Below are positions 20,288 to 40,720 of a stretch of DNA of 43,399 bases, in pieces. The notes under the pieces are model-generated. The model was not told where the DNA came from. It worked only from the letters and a program-made list of their open reading frames with translations, and did no database searches. The DNA is taken from NCBI RefSeq assembly GCF_013166655.1, contig NZ_JABKCA010000051.1:1-43399 (forward strand), given 5' to 3'. The position numbers and the translations under genes were made by a program. The stretch's first letter is position 1. Every line of letters begins with the position of its first letter. This DNA comes from Lentimicrobium sp. L6 (lineage in GTDB: Bacteria > Bacteroidota > Bacteroidia > Bacteroidales > UBA12170).

Positions 20288-23059
20288 TTACTCCTTAATA
20301 ATTTTCAAGAAATGTCTCTTTTCATCGTCTTTAATCTCAACAAAATATAAACCAGAAGGGAGATCCGAATTCATAATGAAATCAAAAGTATTTCCCCCTG
20401 TATTTATCATTCCATGATAAAGGTTTTGTGCTAAAACTCCGGACATATAGTATAAATTGATATGAATAGCCTTTGAAGATTGGCTCATTAGTTTTACTTG
20501 AAACTTAGACCGAACAGGATTTGGAAGCACCTGTATATCTTTTATAGAGGATGTGTTATCTAGGATACCATCTACCAAATCAAAATCATAATAGTTAATA
20601 TTAAAAGCATCGGTTTGGGCCAATACTGTCATGATGGTTTCTCCTTGATTTAAATATACTTCTGTGGAAAAATCCTCCCAATTTTGCCATCCATCGGTGG
20701 AAGTATAATTTACGCTGGCCTCTATGCCTTCATCAAATTGAAAGCGTAAACTTCCTGAATTATAGCCTGACATTCTGCTTTTTAATTGATATATTCCAGA
20801 TTGTTTGACATCAACTACATACTTCATCCAATCACCAGGTTCTATATAGCCCACATTAATTCCTCCTCCAATATCGGTACATTCTTCCGTTTGAATGCCC
20901 AACATATCGTAATAATTCTCCGCCTGTATCTTTCCCGGAATATCATTGCTTCCAGGTGACGCGCCAATATCATTGCAGATATAGAAGTCTTCAAATGGCT
21001 CCAATTCTAAAGTGCTGGATTGAATACCACTACCGATATATGAAATACTCAAATCTTCATCAGAGGATTCTAGTTCCGAGTTTAGGGCTATCACTAATAT
21101 ACTTTCATCATCCTCCCAAATACTAATATCACTAATGATATTGGGGACAGCTACTCCGTCTATTTTGATCACAAAATCCTCATTTTCATAATCAAGAATA
21201 GAAATCTTATCCGATATTGCTAATAGAACAGATTGACCATCTCCAGGACAAATGGCAGCATAAGGTGATAAATGAGTGCTGTTTGCCAAGCTTGAAAATT
21301 GTTGGAGCCCATGTTTATAATCAAAAAGGCCTGGTTTGTTATCCCCAAAATTGATGGGAATTTGACTCATTTTTCTGGGCCAAGTGTGCGCCAATTTTCC
21401 GCTGGGATTATGGTAACCGAAAAGGATTTCGGCAATACCTTCGCCTTCACTTCCAGGAAGCCATGCAGCAATAAACGCATCGGTATAGGGCAACACATCG
21501 CTAATAATCATAGGGCGACCTGAAATCAATACGGTAACAACAGGGATTCCTTTATTTTTTAATCGCTTGATAAGACTAATTTCGTCAGATTCTAGATGTA
21601 AATCGTTTCTATCTCCAGCACCTTCGGCATAAGGGTTTTCTCCAACTACTACTACTGCCACATCAACACTTTCGTTATAATCACCAAGCTCAGAATAAAT
21701 AACTTCACTGGTTTCTGCTAGATTCTGAATGCCTTGGAGTATGTTGGTTCCTTCTGTAATTTGCCCGTTAGAACCCTGCCAAGAAATAGACCATCCACCA
21801 CACTGCGCACCTAAATTATTGGCCAATTTACCAGCAACTAATATCTTCTGATTATTTTTTTGGAGTGGAAGAACATTTATTTTTGAGTTTAGTAAAACGC
21901 TGGACTCTCTTACCGCTTGTCTGGCTATATCTCTATGTGCTTGTGAACCAAAATCGGCAGCTAAACTTGGATCTGTTAAAGGCTCCTCAAATAAATTTAA
22001 TAGAAATTTCTGCTTTAATATCCTTCTGGTCGCATCATTAATTCTTTCTAAACTGACTTCTCCATCTGCCACCAAGCTTTTTAAAATGCTGATGAAATAG
22101 ATATATCTGTCTGGAACCATCACCATATCGATACCTGCATTTACCGACCTTTTTACCGCTTCTCTATAATCTTCATCTACCTGATCTACGCCTTTCCAAT
22201 CAGAAATCACAAAGCCTTCAAATCCCAATTCCTCTTTCAATACATCATTGAGCAGGTAATCATGACCATGTAATTTTTGGCCATTCCAACTATTATAGGA
22301 AGCCATAACTGTTCCTACATTTTGCTCGACGGCATCAATATATCCGGCCATATGAAGCTCCCGTAATACCTCTTCTGAAACAACAGTGTTTCCTTGGTCG
22401 ATACCATTCATTGTTCCTCCATCGCCCACAAAATGCTTGGCACATGCTAAAATAGTTTCGGAGGATGTTAAACTTTCTCCCTGCAGTCCAATTACCGAAG
22501 CCGAAGCCATCATTTTTTGAACTTCTGCAGTTTCGCCAAAGCCTTCATAAGTTCTTCCCCACCTTTCGTTTCTAGGTACTGCTATGCAAGGACTAAAAGT
22601 CCAATCGATTCCTGTTGCGGCCACTTCCTTGGCTGTAATTTGATTAATGGTCGTTACTAAATTTGGATTCCAAGTACATCCCAAGCCAATATTATGAGGA
22701 AATATAACAGCACCATAAACATTATTATGACCATGAACTGCATCTACTCCATAAACCAGAGGAATTCCTAATCTACTATTTAAAGCGATGTTTTGGTATT
22801 CATCATACATATTGGCCCAAGCCGCTTGTGAATTGGGTACAGGAGTAGAGCCTCCTCCACTTAATAAAGAGCCTAATGAATAATAAGAAATGTCAGTTAT
22901 GGTTTCTAGAGCTCCTCTTTCGGCTTGAGTCATCTGACCAATTTTTTCTTCAAGGGTCATGAGCTGAAGGAGACTGTCTACTTTTTCATCAACACTAAGA
23001 GTTTGTGCAAAGGCAGTGATAGAAAAAATTAGACTTAAAAGTATTAATAAAGTTGATCT
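20288..23059 (-). CDS. Secreted GH3 beta-glucosidase with CBM6-like and T9SS sorting domains
   Basis: A 923-residue exported glycoside hydrolase, probably removing glucose from beta-glucans. A signal peptide (MRSTLLILL.., cleavage expected at AFA before Q20) precedes the GH3 barrel. The barrel carries KHF (K208, H209) and the nucleophile Asp 287 in GFVISDWKG. The alpha/beta sandwich carries the likely acid/base Glu 479 in GENPYAEGAGD, as in barley exo-glucanase-type GH3 enzymes. A CBM6-like domain (about 695-825: GKIQAENYY, PGDWMKYVVDV, GETIMTVLA) and a type A T9SS sorting domain (last 80 residues: VLPNPV, SGLYFVEI, KIIKE) follow. It should be exported through T9SS to the cell surface or medium. 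The ATG at 23059 is used because the signal peptide begins there; a GTG 33 bases upstream overlaps the promoter element. No SusC/SusD pair is adjacent. Confidence 0.93.
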   Translation of the reverse strand, partial: RSTLLILLSLIFSITAFAQTLSVDEKVDSLLQLMTLEEKIGQMTQAERGALETITDISYYSLGSLLSGGGSTPVPNSQAAWANMYDEYQNIALNSRLGIPLVYGVDAVHGHNNVYGAVIFPHNIGLGCTWNPNLVTTINQITAKEVAATGIDWTFSPCIAVPRNERWGRTYEGFGETAEVQKMMASASVIGLQGESLTSSETILACAKHFVGDGGTMNGIDQGNTVVSEEVLRELHMAGYIDAVEQNVGTVMASYNSWNGQKLHGHDYLLNDVLKEELGFEGFVISDWKGVDQVDEDYREAVKRSVNAGIDMVMVPDRYIYFISILKSLVADGEVSLERINDATRRILKQKFLLNLFEEPLTDPSLAADFGSQAHRDIARQAVRESSVLLNSKINVLPLQKNNQKILVAGKLANNLGAQCGGWSISWQGSNGQITEGTNILQGIQNLAETSEVIYSELGDYNESVDVAVVVVGENPYAEGAGDRNDLHLESDEISLIKRLKNKGIPVVTVLISGRPMIISDVLPYTDAFIAAWLPGSEGEGIAEILFGYHNPSGKLAHTWPRKMSQIPINFGDNKPGLFDYKHGLQQFSSLANSTHLSPYAAICPGDGQSVLLAISDKISILDYENEDFVIKIDGVAVPNIISDISIWEDDESILVIALNSELESSDEDLSISYIGSGIQSSTLELEPFEDFYICNDIGASPGSNDIPGKIQAENYYDMLGIQTEECTDIGGGINVGYIEPGDWMKYVVDVKQSGIYQLKSRMSGYNSGSLRFQFDEGIEASVNYTSTDGWQNWEDFSTEVYLNQGETIMTVLAQTDAFNINYYDFDLVDGILDNTSSIKDIQVLPNPVRSKFQVKLMSQSSKAIHINLYYMSGVLAQNLYHGMINTGGNTFDFIMNSDLPSGLYFVEIKDDEKRHFLKIIKE

Positions 23060-23091
23060 CATTTTGATTATGTTTGACTTATAATTTGGCA

Positions 23092-23099
23092 CAAAAATA
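23092..23099 (-). promoter_or_regulatory. Putative -7 element for the GH3 gene
   Basis: TATTTTTG on the minus strand matches TAnnTTTG, 32 bases before the ATG at 23059. It supports that start over the GTG at 23092. No sugar-regulator site is recognised beside it. Confidence 0.45.
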
Positions 23100-26319: not shown

Positions 26320-27348
26320 CTATTGTTCAGAATGATTTTTTACTTTTCTAATCTTTTCTAATCCCCAGGTGAGAACTACTGTTAAAAGGAAGATGGGAAC
26401 ATACCACCACATAAACATCGAAAGCTCTTGTGTTTGAAATATGGCTGTTGCAATGTTTCCAATAATTAACCATTGAATGACATAAAACACAGTGATATTT
26501 TTTCCCAACCATCGCAGAAATACAATAACTGGAAACTGAGGAAACTTCTGTACAATAAACCAAAATAGGGTAACCCAAAGAATGACCAAACCCAATGCCC
26601 ATAAGAAGAAGTAGAAGTCATGGTGATAATATTCGCTGAGGTTTATGGTGGTTTCTATCCCAAATTCAGAAAAAGCAAGTACAAAAATGAGTATAGAACC
26701 TAAAACAATGATAGCGCCCTTTTTAAATTTTTGAATCAGTTCTTTGGTTTGCAACTCAATTTTTTGAAATAAGAATCCAAGCAAAGGATAAGCTAACCAA
26801 GGAAATAGTGGGAAATAGGACCAAGAATATTTACCTGCAATAAAAGCAAGAATGTAATTTCGTTCTGCTACCATTAATAGTTCATTCAAATACGAGGTGC
26901 TTCCTACAACCAATAAAATTAATCCAAAAACCAGCCATTTTTGTCCTTTTTCTATCGCTTTTAAAACCGAAAGTATCACAATACTTAAGCCAGCCAGATA
27001 GAAAATGTCAACTCCAAATATAAATTGAAGCGGATCTAATGACCAACCTTCGGTAAAAATCTTTAGTAGCAAATGGAAATTCAATCCAATATTGAGCAGC
27101 AAGCCCAATACAAAAATAAAAATCCCCCGCACAACATTTTGCAATGGGCTTTTTTTATTTAGACCAATAAAATAACCCATTACCATCATAAAAATAGGTA
27201 CAGCAATGGGTCCACCGAGTAATAAAAGAATTCTACCGAACAGACTTTCTCTTCCGGGAAGATTGATAAATGTTTCCAGAATATGAACTGGAACGATCAA
27301 AAAGACCGCAAATCCTTTTAGTAAATCGGGTAAAGGAAATCGTTTCAT
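26320..27348 (-). CDS. Multi-membrane acyltransferase-like protein (DUF1624/acyltransferase-3-like)
   Basis: A 342-residue inner-membrane protein with about ten hydrophobic helices. The N-terminus (PLPDLLKGFAVFLIVPVHILETFI) has the DLLKG start and the conserved His in the first helix that mark membrane acyltransferases of the HGSNAT/DUF1624 and acyltransferase-3 type. Such enzymes transfer an acetyl or other acyl group to sugars or other envelope acceptors. The ATG overlaps the stop of the preceding T9SS gene by four bases (ATGA), so it belongs to the long operon and is its last gene. Acylation of the operon's product or of an envelope target is an inference; the exact family is uncertain. 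Confidence 0.65.
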   Translation of the reverse strand: MKRFPLPDLLKGFAVFLIVPVHILETFINLPGRESLFGRILLLLGGPIAVPIFMMVMGYFIGLNKKSPLQNVVRGIFIFVLGLLLNIGLNFHLLLKIFTEGWSLDPLQFIFGVDIFYLAGLSIVILSVLKAIEKGQKWLVFGLILLVVGSTSYLNELLMVAERNYILAFIAGKYSWSYFPLFPWLAYPLLGFLFQKIELQTKELIQKFKKGAIIVLGSILIFVLAFSEFGIETTINLSEYYHHDFYFFLWALGLVILWVTLFWFIVQKFPQFPVIVFLRWLGKNITVFYVIQWLIIGNIATAIFQTQELSMFMWWYVPIFLLTVVLTWGLEKIRKVKNHSEQ

Positions 27349-28145
27349 TGTACGATGATCTTTCGCGATTCAGATTGATACTTATCATATTTAATATGGT
27401 AATAGTAAACTCCAGTGGAAAGGTCATTTACATTCATGGTAATATTATTTGAATGGCTATCTATCATAAAATCTTTCACCATATTTCCATTGGAATCTAT
27501 GACATAAAGTTGAGCATTTATCACATTTACAGGAAGTTGATATTCTAGTTTAATCACATCTTTTGCTGGGTTTGGATAAGCATTTAGAAAAATATCCTCT
27601 TGGCTATTTGGAGATGATATTACAGAGACAGAGGTGCCAGGAACTCCATAAATATTTGTCCACACGGTTTCTGGACTCACCGAATAGTCGAAACAATAGG
27701 CAAAGAGTTTATATTCATAATTATCTGTTTGGTTGATATAAATATATTGAGCATTATCTATGGTTTGAAGAACATTTCCGTTTTCTGTAATCACTTTAGC
27801 CCCGTAAATATAATAATAAGATGTTGAAGTAGTCACAATTTTATAATAGGTAAATGCCAACTCAATTTCAGAATCAGTATCAAATAATTGTTCTGAAACA
27901 TATTTAATATCAGCTAAAAAATAACCATTAGGAACAGGGCAGTCAATAGTCTTGTAAAGAGAATGATCCATATTGTACATACGACATTCGCTATTCGGAA
28001 CATCCATTAAATAATATTTAAAACCTATGGTTTCAAGATTTACTATTGTAGCTGAATAGTCATAGGTTTTTTCAAAAGTTACTTGTGCAAAACCTGCGAT
28101 AATTGATAATAATAATAATACTGTACTTAAAAAAAATCTTTTCAT
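27345..28145 (-). CDS. T9SS-sorted secreted protein of unknown function
   Basis: A 266-residue exported protein. A signal peptide (MKRFFLSTVLLLLSIIAGFA, cleavage expected before Q) leads into about 165 residues rich in Tyr, Thr and Asn with no recognised domain. The C-terminal 70 residues are a type A T9SS sorting domain (NAYPNPAKDVIKLEYQLP, YVIDSNGNMV, LSTGVYYYHI). The protein should be carried across the outer membrane and attached or released at the surface. It lies ten bases after the TPR gene and overlaps the acyltransferase-like gene, so it appears to be the surface component of the operon. No function can be assigned. Confidence 0.82.
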   Translation of the reverse strand: MKRFFLSTVLLLLSIIAGFAQVTFEKTYDYSATIVNLETIGFKYYLMDVPNSECRMYNMDHSLYKTIDCPVPNGYFLADIKYVSEQLFDTDSEIELAFTYYKIVTTSTSYYYIYGAKVITENGNVLQTIDNAQYIYINQTDNYEYKLFAYCFDYSVSPETVWTNIYGVPGTSVSVISSPNSQEDIFLNAYPNPAKDVIKLEYQLPVNVINAQLYVIDSNGNMVKDFMIDSHSNNITMNVNDLSTGVYYYHIKYDKYQSESRKIIVQ

Positions 28146-28155
28146 TGTATTTTAT

Positions 28156-28779
28156 TTATTTGATTAAGCTTAATCCCTCTGTGGCTGATTTGTCACCAGG
28201 ATTAAATAAATTTACCTTGTTAAATAGTACTTTAGCTTGATTGTTATTGCCCATGAAGTAGGAGGTCCAAGCGAGCATCAACAGACCATCATAACCAAAG
28301 GGATATAAATCGACGACCTTCTTAAAAAGGGAATTGGCAGTATTGTATTCTTTTCTTCCGTAATATACCAAACCCAATCTATAAAGAGCGGTGGTGTTAT
28401 TAGGGTTTACTTCGAGTATTTCATCATAGGTTTTTATAACATTATCCCATTTCCCAAGTGCTGAAAGGGGAAGGATTAAACCAAAACGAGCCTCTTCTGA
28501 ATAAGGTTTGAGCTCTTGTGCTTTGTTATAGTATATGATGGATTCATCAAATAAGCCAGCATTATAATTAAGCCATCCCAAACGAAGGTTTATTTCGTAG
28601 GACGATTCATCATAAACTTTTTTTAAGGCATCCATTGAGGCGCTAAAGTCACTGTTTCTTTCGTAGGTATAGCTCTCTGAAAAAGCTTCCACTAGTTCAT
28701 TATTAGTTGATTGCGAATAAGCAATATTGGCAAGAATTAGTAATATAAAAAGACTAATATATTTTTTTAAAATTTCCAT
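28156..28779 (-). CDS. Exported tetratricopeptide-repeat protein
   Basis: A 207-residue protein with a signal peptide (about 1-22, ending AYS before Q) and four or five tetratricopeptide repeats from about residue 38 onward, for example LRLGWLNYNAGLFDESIIYY, ALYRLGLVYYGRKEYNTANS and LMLAWTSYFMGNNNQAKVLF. These form a protein-binding scaffold, here in the periplasm. Its start overlaps the end of the YaiO-like barrel gene by 13 bases, so the two are translated together and probably work together at the outer membrane. No partner can be named from sequence. Confidence 0.83.
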   Translation of the reverse strand: MEILKKYISLFILLILANIAYSQSTNNELVEAFSESYTYERNSDFSASMDALKKVYDESSYEINLRLGWLNYNAGLFDESIIYYNKAQELKPYSEEARFGLILPLSALGKWDNVIKTYDEILEVNPNNTTALYRLGLVYYGRKEYNTANSLFKKVVDLYPFGYDGLLMLAWTSYFMGNNNQAKVLFNKVNLFNPGDKSATEGLSLIK

Positions 28780-30101
28780 GATATTCCAGCTGTTATTGTG
28801 TGTATTAAATATTTGTATTCTAAATTTGTACTTTTTTCTCCTAAAGTATATACTTGATAGTTTTCCTTTACACTTCTATTAATATATCTAAGGACAAATT
28901 GATATTTTTTATCAATCGGAAAGTATATGCTTCCCATGATTTTATAATCGGATTTTCCAGGAAGATTAAAGACGGTATATCCTGTTGATTCCACGAAGTT
29001 TTTCATATCACCTCGCAAGTATTGTCCTGAAATATAGATTTTTCCAATGGAGGCTCCAGCAGATATTTCGAAAGTGTTAAATGCGAAACTCTCCTCTGGG
29101 CTTGACTTAAAATACACCCTTGGTCTAATAAATAATTTTGTGTTTGATAATGGGTAATAAGTTATCCAAGCAGACAATTGTTTAAAATCTAAATTATTGA
29201 TATTACCTATATTAAGCTCCAATCCTGGCGAAACATTTCCGAAGTCAGACCAAAATGCAGTAGAGAAAACATAATCGCTATACTTAAACTCTTTCAGATC
29301 GAATACTTTGTCCTTATAATTGTTGATGAGTTTACCTGCATATACATCACTTGTCCCCCAAATATAGAGAAGGGAAGGGGAAATATTGAATTTTTTCCCG
29401 ATCACCCATACCGGATTTATATAATAGTTAAACTGATTAACACGAATGGGCGAGCTCGTTTGTTTTCCCCAGTTAACAATGGCATCACGAGTTACGTGAT
29501 AATAACTCAGGTTATGATTCACTGTGAAATTAGAACCTATATGGTGGCTCAGATCTAAAGATTGTTGGGTGTAGCTCTTTAAGAAATAGCCTTCTCCATA
29601 ATCTTCACCAAGGTTTACTTCACTGCTAAAGTCACGACCTCTTAACTCATCAAAATCCTGATTAAAACCATAATTGGTTTCATATGCCAAGAAATCGACT
29701 GCAGTTTTGCGAAGTCCTATCTTCTCTTTCACTTCTTGGGAAAAGGAGCTGATATATTTATTGGCTTCTAGTTTTCGACCACTAAACAATAAACTATAGT
29801 AAACATACTCTTGAAGCCAGTTGTCGGATTGGTCTTTAGCATATGCGTCTATAAAATATTGACAAGCTTTACGATATTTACCTTGCTTGTACCAAGCTAT
29901 GCCAGTTCGATATTGAAGATAATAAAAGTCGATTCCTTGTGCTCTAGCCTCCTCTGACAATTGAATCAATTCTGGCCATTTTTCCTCACGAAAAAGTTGA
30001 TAGGATTGTATATCAACTACCCTATCGTTCATCTTTTCCTGTGCATAGCTAACAGAAAAAAGCATCAATAAAAAGCTTATGACGACTAATTTTTTTGACA
30101 T
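28767..30101 (-). CDS. YaiO-like outer-membrane beta-barrel with N-terminal TPRs
   Basis: A 444-residue outer-membrane protein. After a signal peptide (about 1-20, ending YA before Q), a short TPR-like helical region (about 30-125, AWYKQGKYRKACQYFIDAYA) precedes a barrel of alternating-residue strands from about residue 145 to the end (for example YEISAGASIGK-like ISAGASIGKIYISGQYL, RPRVYF and the last strand ITAGISWKF with a terminal Phe). The layout matches the YaiO family. The start overlaps the urea-transporter/M23 gene by 16 bases. In this operon it is a candidate for moving or anchoring the product at the outer membrane; that is inference. The barrel assignment is firm in general, the family name less so. 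Confidence 0.78.
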   Translation of the reverse strand: MSKKLVVISFLLMLFSVSYAQEKMNDRVVDIQSYQLFREEKWPELIQLSEEARAQGIDFYYLQYRTGIAWYKQGKYRKACQYFIDAYAKDQSDNWLQEYVYYSLLFSGRKLEANKYISSFSQEVKEKIGLRKTAVDFLAYETNYGFNQDFDELRGRDFSSEVNLGEDYGEGYFLKSYTQQSLDLSHHIGSNFTVNHNLSYYHVTRDAIVNWGKQTSSPIRVNQFNYYINPVWVIGKKFNISPSLLYIWGTSDVYAGKLINNYKDKVFDLKEFKYSDYVFSTAFWSDFGNVSPGLELNIGNINNLDFKQLSAWITYYPLSNTKLFIRPRVYFKSSPEESFAFNTFEISAGASIGKIYISGQYLRGDMKNFVESTGYTVFNLPGKSDYKIMGSIYFPIDKKYQFVLRYINRSVKENYQVYTLGEKSTNLEYKYLIHTITAGISWKF

Positions 30102-32305
30102 GTAATCTGTATTTTTAAATCTTTATTAACTAGCTCAATATCGAAAACACCACTTTCATCGAGTTTAGTTTTGAAATGATATTTTTCTGTGCTTTGTCCG
30201 GCGATTTTTTTAGTCAATTCTGATTTCAATAATATATGGTCTGATAAAAGGATATCGCCTTCCTCTTCAATTTCTAGTTTGTAATCTGCTTTTAGAAAAA
30301 GATATATGGGCGCAATCATATCCTGAAGGAACAAAGAAACACCACCAAACATGAGGTTTATAGGAACATTGTCTTTAATATTGCTATTGGGCAAGAAGCC
30401 TAAAGGAACTTTAAATAATGCCAAGAAAAACCAATATAGGGCAGTTTCTTTCTTACCAATATAATTAGTGAAATAATGTTGTTCCTCATTATTGTACAGG
30501 TAGGCAAAAGTATGATCCTCTTCGCTTTCTATATAAATCGAGTTAAACACATCAGTATTTACTCTCCAATTGAATTCTTCATGGTATTCCTGAACTCCAG
30601 TCTTTGTATTTTCAATTCTAAATTCACCAGAAATACCTTGACCAGGAATAAAATGGAGGAGCTTTGTCAGTAAATTATTTTTCCTAGGATTGGCCACCAC
30701 CTGTCCTTTTTGAGGAATAGAGAAGGTTTCGAAATTGTATTTTTCACCTTTTAGAAGATAGTGTCCAATGGGGTAATCTAGAGTTGTAGAGCCAATATAT
30801 GGTGTGGGTTGAAATTGAAAGTGTAAATGTGGGTAAGGGGAGCGACCTGAGTTTCCACATTTCCCGAGTAACTGTCCTTTTTTCACCTGGTCTCCTACTT
30901 TTACTGCAACGGACTGGTGCTTTAGATGACACAACTTGGAAAATATAGTGTGACTATGTTTTATGATAACGGTATTTCCCCAATTGTTAATGATGTCTAC
31001 ATTGCCAATAGTATTATCAGATATGGAGTTAACGACTTCTACCACTGTTCCTTCAAAAGGTGCAGTTATTGCTTTTCCAAAGCAGAAATAATCTTCTACA
31101 AAATCACCACTGCCTTTGTATTGTTCGCCCTTATTATCTGTTATCACAAAATCCCATGCATTCTGCCAGGCTCCTTTGTGAGTAATCTCTCCTTTGTGCC
31201 CCTGACTGATTTGCCATTCTCCAAAGAAAGGTAGGGAAGCTGCAATTGGAAATCTTGCAGGAAAACGCCTTAGATTACCCGATTGTAAATAAAGATTTTT
31301 CTCAGGGTTGCCCAGTTGGATTGGTGTTTCGAGTAGCTTATTGGCTCTTTTCTCCCTTAGTTTTAGAGAATATAAAAACATCAATACCACCATATTGAAT
31401 GGCAAAGAATAGGGTGAAATGTAGAAATGGGCAAAGAGTTGCTGAGTACTAATAGTTATTAAAACCACTGAGGGCAATAATACCATTATCCATGCAAAGC
31501 TGGTACGGCCTGGGATAAGATAATATCCTCCTAGGGCTATAGCGGTCAGAATATAATTAAAGCCAATAAAAGTATAACTCAGTGAGTTAAATTCAATTCC
31601 CACAAAAATGTAGAAAATGTAGGAGATGGTATATCCCAAAATTGAAAGAACAAAGGTAATTCGAGAATATATCAGAAGACCAAGTGAAATGAGTATTCCG
31701 GCCAATAAGCCCTTTTGAAAAAATATAGCTCCAAGAGAATAAAAATAAATCCGAAGAAATGAAGAGCTGATTAAGCCGTCCAACCAATCGTATAGACTCA
31801 CCATGGCTTGTCCACCAATTCCATAGAGCTCATTATAGGTATAGATTCCTCTTTCGCTGATATTGAGGGCTGTGAGTTCTCCTCCTGCTAAAAGTACAAT
31901 CCAGATGGTGGCTAAAAAAGGGATACTTAAAAATGGAAGCCCATATTTCCCAAGCACGCCTTGAAAAGCTATGGTGAGAAAGAAGGCTGTAGTGGATGCA
32001 ATGGCAATCAATAGAAATAATTCTATGGAGGGTTGAAAAGTTAAACCAACACCCAAACCAACCAACAAACTATTAAATCCAAATAATCCAGATTTTATAT
32101 AGTACTCATTATATCCAAGAAAATGGGCCAGAATATTGGCTATGATTACTGCAGTTAAACCACCGATTCCAGCTCCATAATCAAAGAAACTAATCAATAA
32201 TAAAACAATGGCCAGAATTTTAGAAGTGGAAAAAAACACCTGGGAATAACTATTCAAAACAGTAAATATAATCTCCTTGCTTATTATTCTAATGTTTTTT
32301 TCCAT
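30086..32305 (-). CDS. Urea-transporter-type channel fused to a periplasmic M23 peptidase domain
   Basis: A 739-residue two-part protein. Residues about 15-315 are hydrophobic and contain both halves of the urea-transporter fold (GLFGFNSLLVGLG at about 73-85 and FIGFNYILTAIALGG at 246-260). Residues about 370-520 are an M23/LytM-type metallopeptidase domain (AITAPFEGTVVEVV, GNTVIIKH, VKVGDQVKKGQLLGKCG, GNSGRSPYPHLHF). Zinc ligands Asp 385 and His 493/495 are present, but the usual HxxxD first ligand is Gln 381. The last 200 residues are of unknown fold. The channel should lie in the inner membrane with the M23 domain in the periplasm. The start is a clear ATG; the gene follows the PLP decarboxylase by 106 bases and overlaps the barrel gene. 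Urea need not be the cargo. Confidence 0.85.
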   Translation of the reverse strand: MEKNIRIISKEIIFTVLNSYSQVFFSTSKILAIVLLLISFFDYGAGIGGLTAVIIANILAHFLGYNEYYIKSGLFGFNSLLVGLGVGLTFQPSIELFLLIAIASTTAFFLTIAFQGVLGKYGLPFLSIPFLATIWIVLLAGGELTALNISERGIYTYNELYGIGGQAMVSLYDWLDGLISSSFLRIYFYSLGAIFFQKGLLAGILISLGLLIYSRITFVLSILGYTISYIFYIFVGIEFNSLSYTFIGFNYILTAIALGGYYLIPGRTSFAWIMVLLPSVVLITISTQQLFAHFYISPYSLPFNMVVLMFLYSLKLREKRANKLLETPIQLGNPEKNLYLQSGNLRRFPARFPIAASLPFFGEWQISQGHKGEITHKGAWQNAWDFVITDNKGEQYKGSGDFVEDYFCFGKAITAPFEGTVVEVVNSISDNTIGNVDIINNWGNTVIIKHSHTIFSKLCHLKHQSVAVKVGDQVKKGQLLGKCGNSGRSPYPHLHFQFQPTPYIGSTTLDYPIGHYLLKGEKYNFETFSIPQKGQVVANPRKNNLLTKLLHFIPGQGISGEFRIENTKTGVQEYHEEFNWRVNTDVFNSIYIESEEDHTFAYLYNNEEQHYFTNYIGKKETALYWFFLALFKVPLGFLPNSNIKDNVPINLMFGGVSLFLQDMIAPIYLFLKADYKLEIEEEGDILLSDHILLKSELTKKIAGQSTEKYHFKTKLDESGVFDIELVNKDLKIQITCQKN

Positions 32306-32411
32306 TCTGATTTTCTTTGGTTTTTATGATGTTTTTAATAATGGTATTAAGAAATCTGTCTTATTCGTAGTGAAAGATAAATTTAATCAATTACTTTTTA
32401 CAATGAGGGCT

Positions 32412-33752
32412 TTATTTTCTTTTGGGGTTGTTTTCCGTATTTTTAAAGGACTCTAAGCTTTCTTTTTTTCTGATCACATGTGTTTCACCCTCCTCATCAA
32501 TTAAAATCACATTGGGGCGATAGGTGATAAATTGCATCGATTGAGTAACATTATATGCTCCCACGCGCTCTATGACTAAAGGCTCACCCACACCAACCTG
32601 CGGAATGACAATAGCTTCACGAACCACATCAATATTCATACATAATGGACCATATATGGAGGATTCTTCAGCATGGTCGAGTTCTCGGGTGGTGTATACA
32701 TTTAGGTTATACCAAAAGGAGGTAAACAAAAGATTCACCCCTGCATCAATCACCATGGAGCGTCTTCTGTCGCTCAAGCGTTTATTTGCAATCACGGTTG
32801 TCAATAGATAACCGGCATCATCTATTAAGGCTCTACCCGTTTCTAGAAATAAGACAGGTAGTTTTTCATGAGGAATTTCCGAAGAAATCAAAGCATTGGA
32901 GATGGCCTCGGCATAATCGTCAAAAGAAGGACAGGTTTCACTGCCAGGCATATAGGCGCCTTTTAAAGTGTTTTTCGAAGCAAAGCCTCCACCTAGATCT
33001 ATATATTTTAACCAATAATCGAATTTATGGTGAACTGCCATATAGAGGTTTGAAAGTTTAGAAGCAGCAATGCCATATGCTGATGGCGCCATAATGTAGG
33101 TGCCAAGATGAGTGTGTAAACCAATGAGCTCAAGACTATCGGCTAACATAATCCTATTTATGGCATTCCAAGCATCCCCATTTTCATAATTGAAACCAAA
33201 ACGATCCCACATGGGATAAATTCCAGCATCTAGGTTTATTCTAATGGCCACTCTCGCTTTCTTATTTAATTCACGACTGATTTCTATTAACAAATAGAGT
33301 TCATCGAAATGGTCAATATGAATATAGGCATTATGCTCTATAGCCATGATTAAGTCAGATTTGGATTTATCTGGACCATTAAACAAAATTTGAGAACCCT
33401 TCACTCCATTTGAAAGTGCTTTTTCAAACTCGAAACCAGAAACCACTTCGGCCCAAGAACCTTCATCATGATAAATACTACAGATAGCATCTAAGTAATT
33501 GGTTTTATAGGACCAGGCAAATTGTACTTTAGGATACCTAGTTTCAAAGGCTTGTTTGGCCTCTGCAAAAGTGTTTCTTATTGTCTTTTCAGAAAAAACA
33601 AAAAGTGGCGAGCCATATGCTTCCAATAAGCTTGGAACGGCTATTCCATCAATTTCTGAAATTATTTTTTGTTTTACTGGCAATCCAAATTTACTTGGCA
33701 TTCCGGCATTTATCTTACTAATTGAGGGTTTTGTATATTTTAACTTTTCCAT
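32412..33752 (-). CDS. PLP-dependent amino-acid decarboxylase of the LysA (DAP/ornithine decarboxylase) fold
   Basis: A 446-residue cytoplasmic enzyme of the fold-III decarboxylase family. PLP would be bound by Lys 83 in FAWSYKTN. The phosphate loop is DLGGGFASK (252-260), ETGR (304-307) corresponds to EPGR, the catalytic Cys is C371 in GPLCMNID, and GAY (398-400) contacts PLP. In diaminopimelate decarboxylase the Cys motif is CES; here it is CMN, and HIGSQ is replaced by HLGT, so diaminopimelate is probably not the substrate. It is not placed with lysine-biosynthesis genes but ten bases after an ATP-grasp ligase. It probably decarboxylates an amino acid, free or attached to the ligase product. 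The substrate is unknown. Confidence 0.85.
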   Translation of the reverse strand: MEKLKYTKPSISKINAGMPSKFGLPVKQKIISEIDGIAVPSLLEAYGSPLFVFSEKTIRNTFAEAKQAFETRYPKVQFAWSYKTNYLDAICSIYHDEGSWAEVVSGFEFEKALSNGVKGSQILFNGPDKSKSDLIMAIEHNAYIHIDHFDELYLLIEISRELNKKARVAIRINLDAGIYPMWDRFGFNYENGDAWNAINRIMLADSLELIGLHTHLGTYIMAPSAYGIAASKLSNLYMAVHHKFDYWLKYIDLGGGFASKNTLKGAYMPGSETCPSFDDYAEAISNALISSEIPHEKLPVLFLETGRALIDDAGYLLTTVIANKRLSDRRRSMVIDAGVNLLFTSFWYNLNVYTTRELDHAEESSIYGPLCMNIDVVREAIVIPQVGVGEPLVIERVGAYNVTQSMQFITYRPNVILIDEEGETHVIRKKESLESFKNTENNPKRK

Positions 33753-33762
33753 GATATTTCTT

Positions 33763-34809
33763 TTATAATTCTCCGTTCATTGCTATTGATTCAAACTTCT
33801 CTAGATCCACAATAATGTCGTATGAATAGCGCACAAACATTTTTCCTGAACTGTAAGCTTCTAGTGGGGCTACTTCCTGACCTAAAGCCAATTTTACTAA
33901 TGCTTCAGGAATATTCTGACCAGCACCCACAGCTAAATAAACCCATGCGGGAATACGAGGGTTAATTTCGAGAAGGTAATATTCTCCTTTAACGGTTTTT
34001 ATTAACTCAAGCTCCATAGCACCTTTCCACTTTGTTTTACGGATTAGGTTGCTTGTGATTTCTAACATTTTTTTATCGGCAAGGGTAATTCCCCCCCAAG
34101 CTTTCCCTTTGTCAGTAATATATTGTTTTCGCATAGGTACGGCGGCAATGGTATTTCCTTCTCCATCACCAAGAGCAATTACATTTACCTCGGTGCCCTT
34201 TACAAACTCTTGAATAATCACTGGTAAACCCCATTTTGAGGAGATTTTATTGAAAGACTGCTTTACTTGCTCCGAATTATATGCCATATATGCATCATAA
34301 AACTTTCCTTTCACCATCACCGGATATTCAAACTTATCTTTGATTTGAGAAATCTGATTTTGGCTGCCTAAGTTAAGACTTGCAGGAACTTTTAAATCAT
34401 ATTTTTCGCCAAACTCCGGCAGTTTATCTTTATCTCTTTCTTGGAATTGTTTTATCGTAGGTAAAAAAGTTCGAATACCGCTTTCTAATAGGCGGACTTC
34501 ATTCTTCATAAAGGAAAACAATTCAGCATCGAAATTAGGAATGAGAATATCGATGGGGTCACGACGGTGGATTTCCTCAATCCTATCGATTAATTCGTTA
34601 GTGCCAGCGGAAGGATAAGGGATTTGGTAAATTTTATCACATAAGCCCTCCATATATATGCCCGGCTCTAAGGTTTCATACACTAATCCAATAAATTTAA
34701 TATCGAAGGCTTTGGAGTCTTTCAAGGATCGAATTACGGGAACTCCAGGGCCAGGGTTATCGGTATTGTTTAGACCAGTAACGGCTATTGTAAGTTGTAA
34801 AGTTGACAT
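33763..34809 (-). CDS. ATP-grasp ligase (carbamoyl-phosphate-synthase-like)
   Basis: A 348-residue cytoplasmic enzyme that should join a carboxylate to an amine or similar nucleophile through an acyl-phosphate. The N-terminal pre-grasp domain begins TIAVTGLNN and has the PNFDAE turn (91-96). The ATP-grasp core has PVMVKGK with the ATP-binding Lys (about 165-168), QEFVKGTEVNV (200-210) and the magnesium-binding EINPR (281-285). Within the superfamily this resembles CarB- and PylC-type ligases rather than D-Ala ligase. It lies 12 bases after the PqqD-like gene and 10 before the decarboxylase. An amino-acid ligase whose product is then decarboxylated, or vice versa, is the simplest reading; neither substrate is known. 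Confidence 0.87.
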   Translation of the reverse strand: MSTLQLTIAVTGLNNTDNPGPGVPVIRSLKDSKAFDIKFIGLVYETLEPGIYMEGLCDKIYQIPYPSAGTNELIDRIEEIHRRDPIDILIPNFDAELFSFMKNEVRLLESGIRTFLPTIKQFQERDKDKLPEFGEKYDLKVPASLNLGSQNQISQIKDKFEYPVMVKGKFYDAYMAYNSEQVKQSFNKISSKWGLPVIIQEFVKGTEVNVIALGDGEGNTIAAVPMRKQYITDKGKAWGGITLADKKMLEITSNLIRKTKWKGAMELELIKTVKGEYYLLEINPRIPAWVYLAVGAGQNIPEALVKLALGQEVAPLEAYSSGKMFVRYSYDIIVDLEKFESIAMNGEL

Positions 34810-34821
34810 GCTGGTTTTGTT

Positions 34822-35085
34822 TTATTTGAAATCAAGCGGATCTTCAGTAGTGGCAACCTGATGATAGTTAACCATGGCGCAAAACTCATGGTAATCTTTC
34901 TCAAAAGCCAAATCATCGATATCATATTTCTGGATAAATATCTCTTTAATGCTATCGAAGTCAATGTTTTGAGCAATTAGTTTTATTAACTCTAGACCTG
35001 TTGGATTTACATTAAAAGAATCCCCAGTTTTGGAATTGAAAACGAATCCATTGTCGCTAATCTTTATTTCTTCTGTTATATTCAT
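34822..35085 (-). CDS. PqqD-like (RiPP recognition element-like) protein
   Basis: An 87-residue cytoplasmic protein with the small PqqD fold: a beta-hairpin start (IKISDNGFVFNSKTGDSFNV), then NPTGLELIKLIAQN and a helical end (LAFEKDYHEFCAMVNYHQV), as in PqqD and other RiPP recognition elements that bind a leader peptide and present it to a modifying enzyme. It is the first gene of the operon, directly after a -7 element, and precedes the ATP-grasp ligase by 12 bases. I could not find a precursor peptide next to it. It could bind a peptide encoded elsewhere, an amino-acid carrier or the ligase itself. The fold assignment is good; the partner is unknown. Confidence 0.78.
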   Translation of the reverse strand: MNITEEIKISDNGFVFNSKTGDSFNVNPTGLELIKLIAQNIDFDSIKEIFIQKYDIDDLAFEKDYHEFCAMVNYHQVATTEDPLDFK

Positions 35086-35230: not shown

Positions 35231-35824
35231 TTAATAGAGTTTGTTGAGTGACTTCTTATAGAAAGAAGGACTTTTTTTAAAGTCAGACAAGGAAACCCCA
35301 ACAATGGATTTAAACTGGTTAGACAAGTGGTGGGGGCTGCTATAATCCATCATCCAAGCAATTTCGCTTAATGAAATATGGTCTTCCACAGCCAACTCTT
35401 TTACTCTTTCTATTTTTTGAAGGATGATATAACGCTCAAGTGTTATGGGTTCAACTTTTGAGAATACTTTGGACAAGGCTTGATAGCTTTTGCCTAGTTT
35501 CTCCACTAAGTATTCCGATTTTCTAGAGATAGAATCCACATTATTCATATAGTGAACCAACTCGATTACAGTTTGTTTGATTTGCTCTACCATTATCTCA
35601 TCTTTACTAATGATCAGACTCATTCCTAAATTTTGTAATACTTCTTCTATTTGTTTCTTACTAACCTTATCTTGATCATAATTGAGGGTGGCTTCTCCCA
35701 ATTTTATATCAACAACAGAAATACCAAGCTTGGTCAAATCTTCTTTAACCACCCTTATACAACAGTAACCTAACATATTACTTATGAAAATCCTTTTATT
35801 TGTATTACTATCTTGTTGCTTCAT
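35231..35824 (-). CDS. AraC-type regulator with N-terminal HMA-like domain
   Basis: A 197-residue regulator. The N-terminal part (about 8-75) has the ferredoxin-like pattern of heavy-metal-associated domains (GYCCIRVVKEDLTKLGI, DIKLGEATLNYD, QIEEVLQNLGM), but a CC pair stands where the metal-binding CxxC would be. The C-terminal part (about 95-190) is an AraC-type DNA-binding domain (HISLSEIAWMMDYSSPHHLS). It lies 145 bases upstream of the PqqD-like gene on the same strand, so it may regulate that operon or itself. Small regulators of this kind are common in Bacteroidota. The ligand could be a metal, but the missing CxxC makes that doubtful. Confidence 0.85.
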   Translation of the reverse strand: MKQQDSNTNKRIFISNMLGYCCIRVVKEDLTKLGISVVDIKLGEATLNYDQDKVSKKQIEEVLQNLGMSLIISKDEIMVEQIKQTVIELVHYMNNVDSISRKSEYLVEKLGKSYQALSKVFSKVEPITLERYIILQKIERVKELAVEDHISLSEIAWMMDYSSPHHLSNQFKSIVGVSLSDFKKSPSFYKKSLNKLY

Positions 35825-36855: not shown

Positions 36856-38424
36856 TTATTTTTTTGATCCAGAGATTGGGATTAAACGCGCGCTGAGGTC
36901 TGGATCTGCCATATCTGCATCCAATGGAAACATAGGGCGTTTTATGTGTTTATACCCCAATCTTTCTAGGTCTTGATCCACACCGCCTGGGGTTTGGGCC
37001 ATAATCCAATCGGCACGCATATCATAAAGTTCTGGTACTAGGTATCCAATTTTCACTACGACAATATCTGCACCTCTAGGATTTAAACCTAGATTGGTGA
37101 AATCGCTTTCATGATGATAGGGCTTACGTATTTTGGTAACAATGACTGAAACAGAACCTACTTGTACCACTACTTCGGTTTCAGCATATTTATCGCCATG
37201 CTTTATGGCCATTACTTTTCCTTCTAACTGAATTGGTGGTGAAAATCGATCATCAATAGCGGCTCCCACTTCTCCTTTTACTTGTCCACCTACTCCAGCT
37301 TCTAAAGCTTTTTTAACAAGGTCGGGACCAGGAATAGAAGCATATATTAATTTTGAACCTTCCTCCGTTTTAAATTCAGGATGGCTTAGTATTTCATTTA
37401 ATGTCCAAGTTACATCCCCTGCACCACCAGCAGTAGGATTATCGCCCATATCGCTAATGATGAATGGGTGATTATTGCTGGCAATAGCCATATTTAAACA
37501 TTCCTCTAATGGGGCAACTGGTGCTACAAATACAAAATCATTTCTCACCTCCCAAAAGCTTTGTGCCAATGCTTCTGCGTTTTCTATTACTTTTTGTTTT
37601 TCATCACCCGTAACCATCACCACTGCATGATTGCGTTTTTCATCGGCCCAAGCATAACCGACCCAAATGGCAGCATCTAAAATCCCTTCTTTATCAGCCA
37701 CTGGAGCTACCTGCGCATAAAGACTTTTTCCGGGTTCAATTCTGGTGCTGGTTTTTTCTCCTGGAAGTAAGATGGGAATAGGAATCCAAGCTTTAAAGGC
37801 TGGTTTTCCTTTTCCACTTTCTAATCTATCTAAAAGATTAGTCAAAGCTCGTTTTCTTGATTCTGTGGCATCTTCATGGGGAGCCAAACGATAACAAGTG
37901 ATTAAATCACTATTCTCGGCCAATCGTGGCGAAACATTTCCATGCAAATCCATTGAAGTAGAAATGATGGTTTCATAACCTATTACTTCTCTTATTTTGA
38001 TGATAAAGTCACCCTCTGGATCTTCTAAACCTACCACGCTCATGGCACCATGAATATCGAGGAATAAACCATCGTAGGGAAGGTTTTCTTTGAGTCTTTC
38101 TAGCGTTTCTTTGAGTAATGATTCGTAAGCTTCACGGGTAACAATTCCACCAGGGATGGCATGACCTCTAAGGCTAGGGAAATAGGTTGCTCTTTTTCTG
38201 TTGATGGAATCTGGCGAAAGGAAATTATAATAGGTATATACCTCCTCGCCACGACGAGCATGAAAAGCTTCTTTGTGGGTTTGAGCCGGAGAAAAGGTGC
38301 TCGATTCAATGGCAATTCCAGCTATGGCAATGCGAGGTAAATCTTTTTGTTGTTCTTCTTTATTTACTGATGTTCCACAGGATAATAATAAGATTAGTGA
38401 TAGGAAATAGAGTACTTTTTTCAT
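36856..38424 (-). CDS. M81-family (MlrC/microcystinase-like) metallopeptidase lipoprotein
   Basis: A 522-residue exported hydrolase. The N-terminus is a lipoprotein signal with the lipobox LLLSC (Cys 16), so the protein should be lipid-anchored in the envelope. The family block is clear: GIAIESSTFSP, FLDIHGAMSVVGLEDPEGD, STSMDLHGNVSP with the likely metal-binding His, YRLAPHEDATESRKRA, and FIISDMGDNPTAGGAGDVT. M81 proteins are named for MlrC, which removes linear microcystin fragments, but most relatives act on unknown amides or peptides. The lipoprotein signal is unusual, since many relatives are cytoplasmic. It starts the three-gene unit with DUF4180 and TfoX-domain genes. Confidence 0.88.
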   Translation of the reverse strand: MKKVLYFLSLILLLSCGTSVNKEEQQKDLPRIAIAGIAIESSTFSPAQTHKEAFHARRGEEVYTYYNFLSPDSINRKRATYFPSLRGHAIPGGIVTREAYESLLKETLERLKENLPYDGLFLDIHGAMSVVGLEDPEGDFIIKIREVIGYETIISTSMDLHGNVSPRLAENSDLITCYRLAPHEDATESRKRALTNLLDRLESGKGKPAFKAWIPIPILLPGEKTSTRIEPGKSLYAQVAPVADKEGILDAAIWVGYAWADEKRNHAVVMVTGDEKQKVIENAEALAQSFWEVRNDFVFVAPVAPLEECLNMAIASNNHPFIISDMGDNPTAGGAGDVTWTLNEILSHPEFKTEEGSKLIYASIPGPDLVKKALEAGVGGQVKGEVGAAIDDRFSPPIQLEGKVMAIKHGDKYAETEVVVQVGSVSVIVTKIRKPYHHESDFTNLGLNPRGADIVVVKIGYLVPELYDMRADWIMAQTPGGVDQDLERLGYKHIKRPMFPLDADMADPDLSARLIPISGSKK

Positions 38425-38929: not shown

Positions 38930-40720
38930 TTATTTAATAAACTTCTGGCTTATCATATTCTTTCCATCGTTTCTTAGCTGTAGGAAATATAAACCAGATT
39001 TTAATTGATTGGTATTGATTTCTAATCTTTGTGTTCCCATACTTAATTGCTCTTGGGCTTCATACATCACTTGTCCTAGTTGATTGATAATTAAAACCTC
39101 AACTTGAGTAGCTTCTTGAGCTTCTACTTCGAGATAAGCTATATTGCCTACTGGATTAGGATAAATATCACCAATACGAGCGATATATCTTGATGCGATA
39201 TCTTCTAATCCTGTGGTGACTCCATTTTCGGTAATATTGATTTCCACATGAGAAGTAGGATTGTCAGCGCTTAAGGTAATAATAGCTGGCTGAGTTGTTA
39301 AACCTATTACTTCAGCATATACCATATAGGTGCCGAAAGCGATATTAGAGAAATCGAATCCTGCGTCAATACTAGATGTAATCTCTAATGGATTTCCAGT
39401 TTCAGATAATAAGAATAAACTAATATCATCAGCTGACAACTGACTTTTAAAACCATCCCCTATAATATCTCCATTGATGACACCGTCGCCAGAGTTGGCA
39501 CCAGAAGTAGTCTGAAGAATAATATCATATGGGTTCTCTAGTTCACCAAGAGTAATAATAGTTGCATCTAACCAATAGATAGCATCGCCATAATAGGTCG
39601 GATAAGTAGTATTAAAATGTAATGAAGATTGGTCAGCTTCTGCTAAAATTAAATAGCTACCTTGAGGTATATCAGCAAAATAGTAAGCCCCAATAGAATC
39701 TATTACACACTGAGCTATTAATACAAAGTCTTGACCAGAAACAGTATCGTTCATAATACCATATAGGCTAGCTATTCCTGAGTCAAGAGGCATGTTTTCT
39801 GCAAATACTTGCCCCCATAGGAATTCTCCAGAGCTACCACCTACAATATTCACCCAATGGCTAGATGTTGCTACACAGCCTTCAACATTAGTAGTAGTCA
39901 ATATAATCATATAATCACCACCATTGGCATACTCATGAGTGACTTCTTGACCTTCAGCACTTGTACCATCACCAAAACTCCATGCAAAGTCTATGATTTC
40001 AGTATTATCGAGTCCGTAACCCCAAACGGTAACCGTCATATCATCTACTTCAAATTCAAATGCATTCTGACAATTGGTAGAATCGTTTCCTCCACCTGTG
40101 GTGTCTTGCATCACATAAATAGTTTGTGTAGAAATATATTCACAAGTATCGTTAAGAACAGTTTCTAGGCTTACTGAATAAGTTCCATCTTCTGCAAAAG
40201 TATGGTTCACTTCCATTCCTTCAGCTGTTGTTCCATCACCGAAGTTCCATGAGAATATGGCATCACCTTCGCTAAATATCTCACCTGCAAATTGATATTC
40301 TAGACCTTCACCTATGTAATAGAAGAAGTTTTCACAACTATAGTTGGTGGTATCATTTCCTCCACCTCCACCAGAAGTATCTGTACAAACTTCAAAATCA
40401 TAATAGATTTCCATATTGCCAGGATTGAAAAACTGTGAAACCACTAAATAGTCATTACAAGTTTCTGTGGAGAGGATGATTTCTCCTTGAGTATTTTCAT
40501 CGTCTAAAGTAATTTCATCAATATAATAACCATCGCTATTGGTAAATACAGAATTAGAATAGAAAAATCCAGCAATTGAGTCGCTGCTATAAATATTGAC
40601 CATATGGCCAGAGATGGCATCTCCATTTTCATCAACTACCGTTCCGTTGACCACTAAATCTAATGCCATGATTTGCGTTCCTAAAAAAACTAGGACAAAG
40701 AATAAATAAATACGTTTCAT
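38930..40720 (-). CDS. Secreted PKD-domain protein with T9SS sorting domain
   Basis: A 596-residue exported protein. After the signal peptide (about 1-19, ending MA before LDLVV), a carboxypeptidase-regulatory-like beta domain (about 20-115, VNGTVVDENGDAI) is followed by two PKD domains (about 125-205 and 215-295, with FSWNFGDGTTAEG and FAWSFGDGTSAEG), then two further beta-sandwich segments and a type A T9SS sorting domain over the last 80 residues (IGDIYPNPVG, LKSGLYFLQL, SQKFIK). Glycine-rich linkers with DTSGGGGGNDTT separate the first domains. It looks like a surface adhesin or matrix protein; no catalytic domain is seen. It is a single gene with its own terminator. Confidence 0.88.
   Translation of the reverse strand: MKRIYLFFVLVFLGTQIMALDLVVNGTVVDENGDAISGHMVNIYSSDSIAGFFYSNSVFTNSDGYYIDEITLDDENTQGEIILSTETCNDYLVVSQFFNPGNMEIYYDFEVCTDTSGGGGGNDTTNYSCENFFYYIGEGLEYQFAGEIFSEGDAIFSWNFGDGTTAEGMEVNHTFAEDGTYSVSLETVLNDTCEYISTQTIYVMQDTTGGGNDSTNCQNAFEFEVDDMTVTVWGYGLDNTEIIDFAWSFGDGTSAEGQEVTHEYANGGDYMIILTTTNVEGCVATSSHWVNIVGGSSGEFLWGQVFAENMPLDSGIASLYGIMNDTVSGQDFVLIAQCVIDSIGAYYFADIPQGSYLILAEADQSSLHFNTTYPTYYGDAIYWLDATIITLGELENPYDIILQTTSGANSGDGVINGDIIGDGFKSQLSADDISLFLLSETGNPLEITSSIDAGFDFSNIAFGTYMVYAEVIGLTTQPAIITLSADNPTSHVEINITENGVTTGLEDIASRYIARIGDIYPNPVGNIAYLEVEAQEATQVEVLIINQLGQVMYEAQEQLSMGTQRLEINTNQLKSGLYFLQLRNDGKNMISQKFIK

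Follow-up and report, generated by a model that had tools for sequence, protein, structure and literature searches.

A conserved gene set linking PqqD-like, ATP-grasp, and decarboxylase genes to a urea-type channel-M23 fusion: a possible biosynthesis-and-export module in Bacteroidota

What could bring together, in one bacterial gene cluster, a PqqD-like protein, an ATP-grasp ligase, a decarboxylase dependent on pyridoxal phosphate (PLP), and a urea-transporter channel fused to an M23 hydrolase? The question is raised by a stretch of 43,399 nucleotides from Lentimicrobium sp. L6 (contig NZ_JABKCA010000051.1), herein referred to as the window, in which the list of open reading frames (ORFs) confirmed eight minus-strand genes at positions 26320-35085. 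From 5' to 3' of the transcript, these genes encode the PqqD-like protein, the ligase, the decarboxylase, the channel-hydrolase fusion (UT-M23), an outer-membrane barrel, a tetratricopeptide repeat (TPR) protein, a protein sorted by the type IX secretion system (T9SS), and an acyltransferase. The Pfam domains found, in gene order, are PqqD, ATPgrasp_Ter/ATP-grasp_3, the N- and C-terminal Orn_Arg_deC domains, UT with Peptidase_M23, TPR, Por_Secre_tail, and Acyl_transf_3. We give roughly even chances to these genes being a biosynthesis-and-export module for a small amino-acid-derived compound.

A linked core of four genes and its companions

Spacers of 12, 10, and 106 bp separate the PqqD-like gene from the ligase gene, the ligase gene from the decarboxylase gene, and the decarboxylase gene from UT-M23, respectively. 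The UT-M23/barrel and barrel/TPR junctions are overlaps of 16 and 13 bases, the TPR and T9SS genes are 10 bp apart, and the T9SS and acyltransferase genes overlap by 4 bases. A preliminary description of the locus had given the same ORFs, order, and 106-base gap; its range for the other junctions (at most a 4-bp overlap or a 12-base gap) leaves out the two longer overlaps.

In total, 73 loci were compared, including 47 from a contig scan with UT-M23 and 26 from a profile search of a phylum sample with the window genome excluded; this set includes near-copies, such as the close pair L044 and L051, and the two sets of genomes may share members. The genes for the PqqD-like protein, the ligase, and the decarboxylase were found at 60 of the 61 UT-M23 loci having at least 4.5 kb of upstream sequence. 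The sole exception is a natural split of the module within one genome, where UT-M23 and the barrel, TPR, and T9SS genes are located at L032:10001-15139, and the trio, together with an AraC regulator, is located on another contig (L131:2599-6036). The trio was also found at 11 of 11 further near-relative loci fetched around the ligase (L002-L012). All four core genes are co-stranded in each of the 26 phylum-sample loci. Variants of the core include L110, where about 2 kb separate the PqqD-like gene from the ligase gene, and L106:6949-9203, where the fusion is replaced by two overlapping ORFs, one for UT and one for M23. A TPR protein nearly always accompanies the core, and most loci also have a recognizable outer-membrane barrel: the TPR gene was found within 3.5 kb of UT-M23 at 56 of the 59 loci with at least 2.7 kb downstream (it is missing in L058, L105, and L106), and barrels of the window type were found at 53 of the 73 loci, with smaller barrels, after the TPR gene or elsewhere, at 13 more.

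Searches of 296 genomes of the phylum for the ligase (E≤1e-60) and for the decarboxylase (E≤1e-90) found 27 genomes each, and the same 27 genomes, belonging to 22 of 140 genera, contain the UT part of UT-M23; the search scores only part of the initial candidates per genome, and isolated misses are possible. For UT-M23, the genomes with a UT part were counted from the list, the whole tally of 278 genomes including M23-only matches. In a second phylum, entered via a record titled Candidatus Latescibacterota, the ligase was found in 9 of 147 genomes, all nine with the order PqqD-ligase-decarboxylase-UT-M23 (L142 and L145 are cut by contig ends). Pairwise gene distances of six families are correlated with r of 0.84-0.98, uncorrected for species descent, and none of 500 permutations gave so high a value for any of the 15 pairs. 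Among plasmids, none of the 69 matching records covers 80% of UT-M23. Carriers include the cultured Maribellus luteus (L033) and M. maritimus (L037), named from record titles, and the module is therefore testable.

The comparison shows that the genes for the PqqD-like protein, the ligase, the decarboxylase, and UT-M23 are an ancient, linked, single inherited unit. As their order recurs in dozens of loci, it is not due to chance. These observations support the genes acting as one system, which the preliminary description had supposed, and the gene-neighbourhood search that it had proposed across Bacteroidota confirms the joint conservation of the first four genes. The supposition does not extend to all eight genes, since most distant relatives either lack the T9SS and acyltransferase genes or have them in other places. 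The features of the window are listed in Table 1.

Table 1. Coordinates of the gene cluster, its domains, and the upstream regulator in the window
Feature	Position	Strand	Evidence
Probable regulator, degenerate HMA-like domain and AraC HTH	35231..35824	-	HTH_18 43.9 bits; HMA 18.8 bits, under cut-off 24.8
PqqD-like small protein, 87 aa, first core gene	34822..35085	-	Pfam PqqD 23.6 bits (cut-off 23.4)
ATP-grasp ligase, 348 aa	33763..34809	-	Pfam ATPgrasp_Ter 46.6 bits
PLP-dependent decarboxylase, alanine-racemase fold, 446 aa	32412..33752	-	Pfam Orn_Arg_deC_N 98.1 bits
UT-M23 fusion (urea-transporter/M23), 739 aa	30086..32305	-	Pfam UT 188.8 bits, Peptidase_M23 62.7 bits
Urea-transporter channel domain of UT-M23, residues 4-346	31268..32296	-	Structural match to solved urea transporters
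M23 (LytM-like) domain of UT-M23, about residues 347-529	30719..31267	-	Structural match to LytM/M23
C-terminal beta-rich region of UT-M23, about residues 530-739	30089..30718	-	Confident model, barely covered by structure comparison
Outer-membrane barrel with N-terminal TPR-like helices, 444 aa	28767..30101	-	AlphaFold2 model
Periplasmic TPR protein, 207 aa, signal-peptide-like N-terminus	28156..28779	-	TPR Pfam matches
T9SS-sorted secreted protein, 266 aa, accessory	27345..28145	-	Por_Secre_tail 47.7 bits
Membrane acyltransferase-like protein, 342 aa, accessory	26320..27348	-	Acyl_transf_3 64.3 bits

The decarboxylase, the ligase, and the PqqD-like protein

The closest solved relative of the decarboxylase is the N-citrylornithine decarboxylase FigC (7kh2, 280.5 bits); diaminopimelate decarboxylase (DAPDC) and BtrK match with 184.8 and 132 bits. 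Residues K83, H213, GGG254-256, E304, R307, C371, and Y400 are present in 19 of 19 aligned rows. The PLP and catalytic residues are kept and the pockets for basic amines and diaminopimelate are lost, the pattern looked for in a decarboxylase of tethered substrates. At the position of the DAPDC specificity-helix arginine, the protein has T344, and M372 replaces the acidic residue after the catalytic C371 (19/19 rows), as in FigC. The FigC residues R387 and H357 are replaced by Q404 and I374, again in all 19 rows. With these DAPDC and FigC residues changed, the decarboxylase should therefore act on neither diaminopimelate nor a citryl amide; judging from its residues, the pocket suits an amino acid without a free amine at the far end. 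In the available part of PMC7857480, from which the residue roles are taken, R387 and H357 are proposed contacts of the citryl group, and FigC, SbnH, AcsE, MccE, and BtrK are grouped with DAPDCs and D-ODC, the substrates of these five being amino acids attached to citrate, peptide-nucleotide, or carrier protein. In our tree, FigC stands beside the operon family with support of 100/100; this placement is flagged for long branches and is for that reason used as a hint.

Membership in the LysA superfamily could mean that ordinary lysine or polyamine genes have been misread as a new system, and the preliminary description had named the placement of the ligase and decarboxylase genes in such a pathway as the finding that would remove its novelty. 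The decarboxylase scores 222.4 bits against TIGR01048 (LysA), where the cut-off is 297.9 (221.9 bits in the genome search), it has T344 and M372 in place of the DAPDC-specific residues, and a separate lysA gene was found elsewhere in the genome (401.5 bits). On these grounds, both the identity as LysA and a role in lysine or polyamine metabolism were rejected, and the probability left to a misreading of this kind is close to negligible.

The likeness to FigC could alternatively point to a metallophore such as rhizoferrin or staphyloferrin, for which the ligase and decarboxylase would assemble a chelator whose export the probable regulator would control. The gene for this regulator, which the preliminary description had not included, is located upstream of the eight genes on the same strand, relatives of it stand upstream of the core at other loci, and the protein has a domain resembling the heavy-metal-associated (HMA) family. 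Against a metallophore, the CxxC of the HMA-like domain is kept in just 11 of 22 aligned regulators (counted by eye) and is lost in the window protein, the citrate-binding pair of FigC is absent, and neither a synthetase of the NRPS-independent siderophore (NIS) type nor a TonB-dependent receptor was recognized among the core genes. The decarboxylase scores 219.5 bits against NF041039 (FslC/FigC), with a cut-off of 500; membership among the N-citrylornithine enzymes of siderophore synthesis was rejected on this score and the missing citrate residues, and a metallophore system is assigned a low probability.

The PqqD-like protein was placed among PqqD-type proteins, which include the recognition elements (RREs) of ribosomally synthesized and post-translationally modified peptides (RiPPs), by a Pfam score above the cut-off and by matches of the family profile to the solved lasso-peptide RREs TbiB1 (8.2e-12) and TfuB1 (1.1e-7). 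Its C-terminal residue varies across the family (K in 22 proteins, E in 13, V, N, Y, and S in 4 each, and others), and a role as a LysW-like tether was rejected for want of a conserved last residue. In the ligase, the candidate catalytic residues K167, E266, E268, E281, N283, and R285 are present in 20 of 20 aligned rows; its score against the MvdC model is 13.2 bits, far from the cut-off of 425, and it was not counted among graspetide ligases. This ligase is the natural candidate for making an amino-acid attachment ahead of the decarboxylase. We infer, with support from these families, that the first genes carry out an amino-acid-based synthesis in the cytoplasm, as the preliminary description had proposed.

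The matches to TbiB1 and TfuB1 also agree with a RiPP-like pathway, in which the PqqD-like protein would bind the leader of a precursor encoded elsewhere, the ligase and decarboxylase would modify this precursor, and the M23 domain would cut the leader at the channel. MccE, an enzyme whose substrate is a peptide-nucleotide, falls in the decarboxylase clade (available part of PMC7857480). Against this stands a scan of 549 small ORFs of 18-90 aa, limited to those that start with ATG on the coding strand and lie no more than 1.2 kb from the core, in which no real-looking conserved precursor peptide was found: by position, the widest clusters (13, 10, and 9 loci) are located within the T9SS gene region, a cluster found at 6 loci corresponds to the beginning of the acyltransferase gene, and the remaining clusters span at most 4 loci. 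A urea-type pore is also narrow for a peptide, and a RiPP-like pathway is considered unlikely.

The channel-hydrolase fusion and a proposed route out of the cell

The AlphaFold2 model of UT-M23 has a mean pLDDT (predicted local distance difference test score) of 82.8, with the C-terminal region confidently modelled. The channel domain matches solved urea transporters with Z of about 33-34 and thus has the UT fold; the following domain matches LytM/M23 structures with Z of about 12-14.6. Residues H376, D385, H460, H493, and H495, which we take to be the metal and catalytic His/Asp of M23, were found in 19 of 19 rows and mark this domain as an M23 member. The first-half pore motif of the UT domain is mostly retained, with the pore glutamine Q22 in 17 of 19 rows. 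The position of the second-half Glu of dvUT, a residue with a pore role, is A or S in all 19 rows. Against the curated Yut model, the domain scores 122.5 bits (cut-off 274.6).

A full UT domain starts and ends on one side of the membrane, which is the cytoplasmic side in known urea transporters. The stretch right after the UT domain contains on average 4.7 K+R vs 1.8 D+E (19 rows), and the stretch joining the UT halves has a net negative charge in 12 rows, no net charge in 5, and a net positive charge in 2. This topology and charge pattern predict a cytoplasmic position for the M23 domain, and not the action outside that had been proposed earlier.

Close M23 relatives without a UT domain were found at L125:3659-4618, at L126:2527-3621, and at L117 and L120. 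Among such relatives are plasmid-encoded proteins from a haloarchaeon and from Thermus, the latter with several hydrophobic segments at its N-terminus. An Azospirillum match was rejected, being an unrelated-looking exported M23 protein. Archaea have no murein, and this M23 subfamily therefore has another substrate; the Thermus and haloarchaeal relatives show that it is not tied to murein.

The side on which M23 works bears on an envelope system, in which a periplasmic M23 domain would cut peptidoglycan, the channel, TPR protein, and barrel would span the wall, and the enzymes would make a wall or surface modification. The M23 fold best matches peptidoglycan hydrolases, and 7 of 9 free-standing M23 relatives look secreted by eye, which fits an external M23 domain. 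However, the UT topology and charges put the domain in the cytoplasm, and close relatives occur in a haloarchaeon, where murein is lacking; an envelope system appears rather improbable.

The barrel model (AlphaFold2, mean pLDDT 90.8) has helices at residues 26-127 and 14 listed strands. Its fold matches FadL/TodX with Z of about 20 and is also near CymA and OmpG, and its N-terminal helices match TPR proteins with Z of about 14. The model supports the barrel itself, for which the name YaiO had been suggested; no family so named was found among its Pfam matches at E≤1, in a library that was not checked for a YaiO model. Window-type and small barrels are linked by profile through intermediates only (probabilities 95.4 and 96.6). 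For the barrel of L058, a second-phylum locus that likewise has the small type, the probability of the link is 97.2.

Resemblance of the barrel to the uptake channels FadL/TodX and CymA, together with the passive nature of UT channels, which can work in either direction, would fit a system of uptake and breakdown, in which the barrel and channel import a small amide and the M23 domain and decarboxylase degrade it. A shared barrel fold shows no function, however, and an ATP-consuming ligase as the first enzyme of the operon fits synthesis better; we regard uptake and breakdown as quite improbable.

For the export of a synthesized compound, the following route is tentatively proposed, with the PqqD-like protein as tether or presenter for the ligase and for a decarboxylase of tethered amino acids, an M23 domain on the cytoplasmic face of a urea-type channel that clips the product, and a dedicated TPR porin as exit; in this detail, the proposal has less than an even chance. 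In the cytoplasm, the ATP-grasp enzyme would join an amino acid by an amide-type bond to a partner, which may be a small acid, or else a carrier or peptide that the PqqD-like protein holds. The decarboxylase would then strip the carboxylate from the amino acid on its tether. Hung from the channel, the M23 domain would hydrolyse the product free at the channel mouth, and the UT domain would conduct it to the periplasm, which it would leave by way of the TPR protein and TPR-barrel porin. The T9SS proteins, as lineage-specific outer parts, may bind or process the product.

Several points weigh against this proposal. The orientation of the channel is a prediction, and the secreted look of the free-standing M23 relatives fits the opposite one. 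A LysW-like tether is unsupported because the C-termini of the PqqD-like proteins are unconserved, and the small-ORF scan offers no conserved precursor peptide near the core in its place. The position of FigC next to the operon decarboxylases depends on a long branch. Compared directly by profile, the window barrel and the small barrels found in other branches show no similarity (probability 2.8). As urea-type channels are passive, the export direction is a guess.

If the proposal is true, the module adds an unstudied biosynthetic system, present in complete form in a scatter of Bacteroidota and also in a second phylum. Urea-channel folds would then serve more than urea, with a urea-type channel as the exit of a biosynthetic line, M23 hydrolases would be able to work in the cytoplasm, and PqqD-type proteins would serve ATP-grasp/decarboxylase chemistry.

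Neighbouring genes and comparison with known systems

T9SS genes of the window type were found at 21 of the 73 loci and acyltransferase genes at 20, several of the latter on the opposite strand; both are lineage-specific accessories. In another branch, eight loci (L094-L101) have a T9SS-tailed protein of similar size directly before the PqqD-like gene, and the T9SS proteins of the two branches show weak profile kinship (hhalign probability 44, E 2.3e-4). Directly before the PqqD-like gene, two second-phylum loci (L058:6832-7260 and L139:10416-10859) and L105 (11568-12062) encode a secreted protein of 142-164 aa; the two of these proteins that were scanned have no Pfam match.

Genes resembling aromatic amino acid lyase and the riboflavin synthase beta subunit (RibH), mostly with a reductase of the short-chain dehydrogenase/reductase (SDR) type, were named by eye at L042, L043, L047, L050, L051, and L059, where they are located upstream of the regulator on the opposite strand. 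As parts of the module, the lyase, SDR, and RibH genes of these Chlorobi-type loci were rejected, being neighbours in one lineage only. In the window, an MlrC-type M81 metallopeptidase with a lipoprotein-like N-terminus is encoded upstream on the same strand (36856-38424), and two more T9SS-sorted products are encoded at 20288-23092 and 38930-40720, namely a GH3 enzyme that carries CBM6 and a protein with a PKD domain.

No description of this gene set was found in the literature searched, which comprised open-licence papers. A survey of ATP-grasp amidoligase neighbourhoods, reportedly made by Iyer and colleagues in 2009, might mention such loci. The available part of PMC8939145 does not mention urea, M23, or decarboxylase.

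Known systems resemble the module in parts. With bacterial urea transporters (dvUT and Yut), UT-M23 has the channel fold in common and also, for the most part, the pore motif of the first half; unlike them, it has A or S for the second-half Glu and a fused M23 domain, and no urease adjoins it in the locus maps. PgaA, BcsC, and PelB are TPR-porin exporters, in which, as here, an outer-membrane barrel is joined to TPR helices; however, the 14-stranded model is nearest to FadL/TodX/OmpG, and the unit contains no polysaccharide synthase. The lasso-peptide B1 proteins TbiB1 and TfuB1 have the same stand-alone PqqD/RRE fold by profile, but no precursor, protease B2, or cyclase was found in the cluster. 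Graspetide pathways differ in both ligase and precursor, as the ligase is not of the MvdC/MdnC type by score and no core precursor was found near the core.

The closest parallels lie in pathways where an amino acid is attached before it is decarboxylated. In butirosin synthesis (BtrI-BtrJ-BtrK), an amino acid is loaded on a small carrier and decarboxylated there; BtrJ is an ATP-grasp ligase, and BtrK belongs to the same decarboxylase superfamily. The small protein here is PqqD-like and not an acyl carrier protein, although its length of 87 aa is that given for BtrI in the available part of PMC7857480, and the module adds the channel-M23 fusion, the TPR protein, and the barrel. With the rhizoferrin pair FigA/FigC, the locus shares a FigC-like decarboxylase, including the Cys-Met pair, but has an ATP-grasp ligase instead of an NIS synthetase, replaces R387/H357, and stays under the FslC-model cut-off. 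The attach-before-decarboxylate logic is thus like that of BtrI-J-K and FigA/C, yet by the tests made, the module is a member of neither. Tethered-amino-acid pathways are already known; the channel-hydrolase exit is the novel part.

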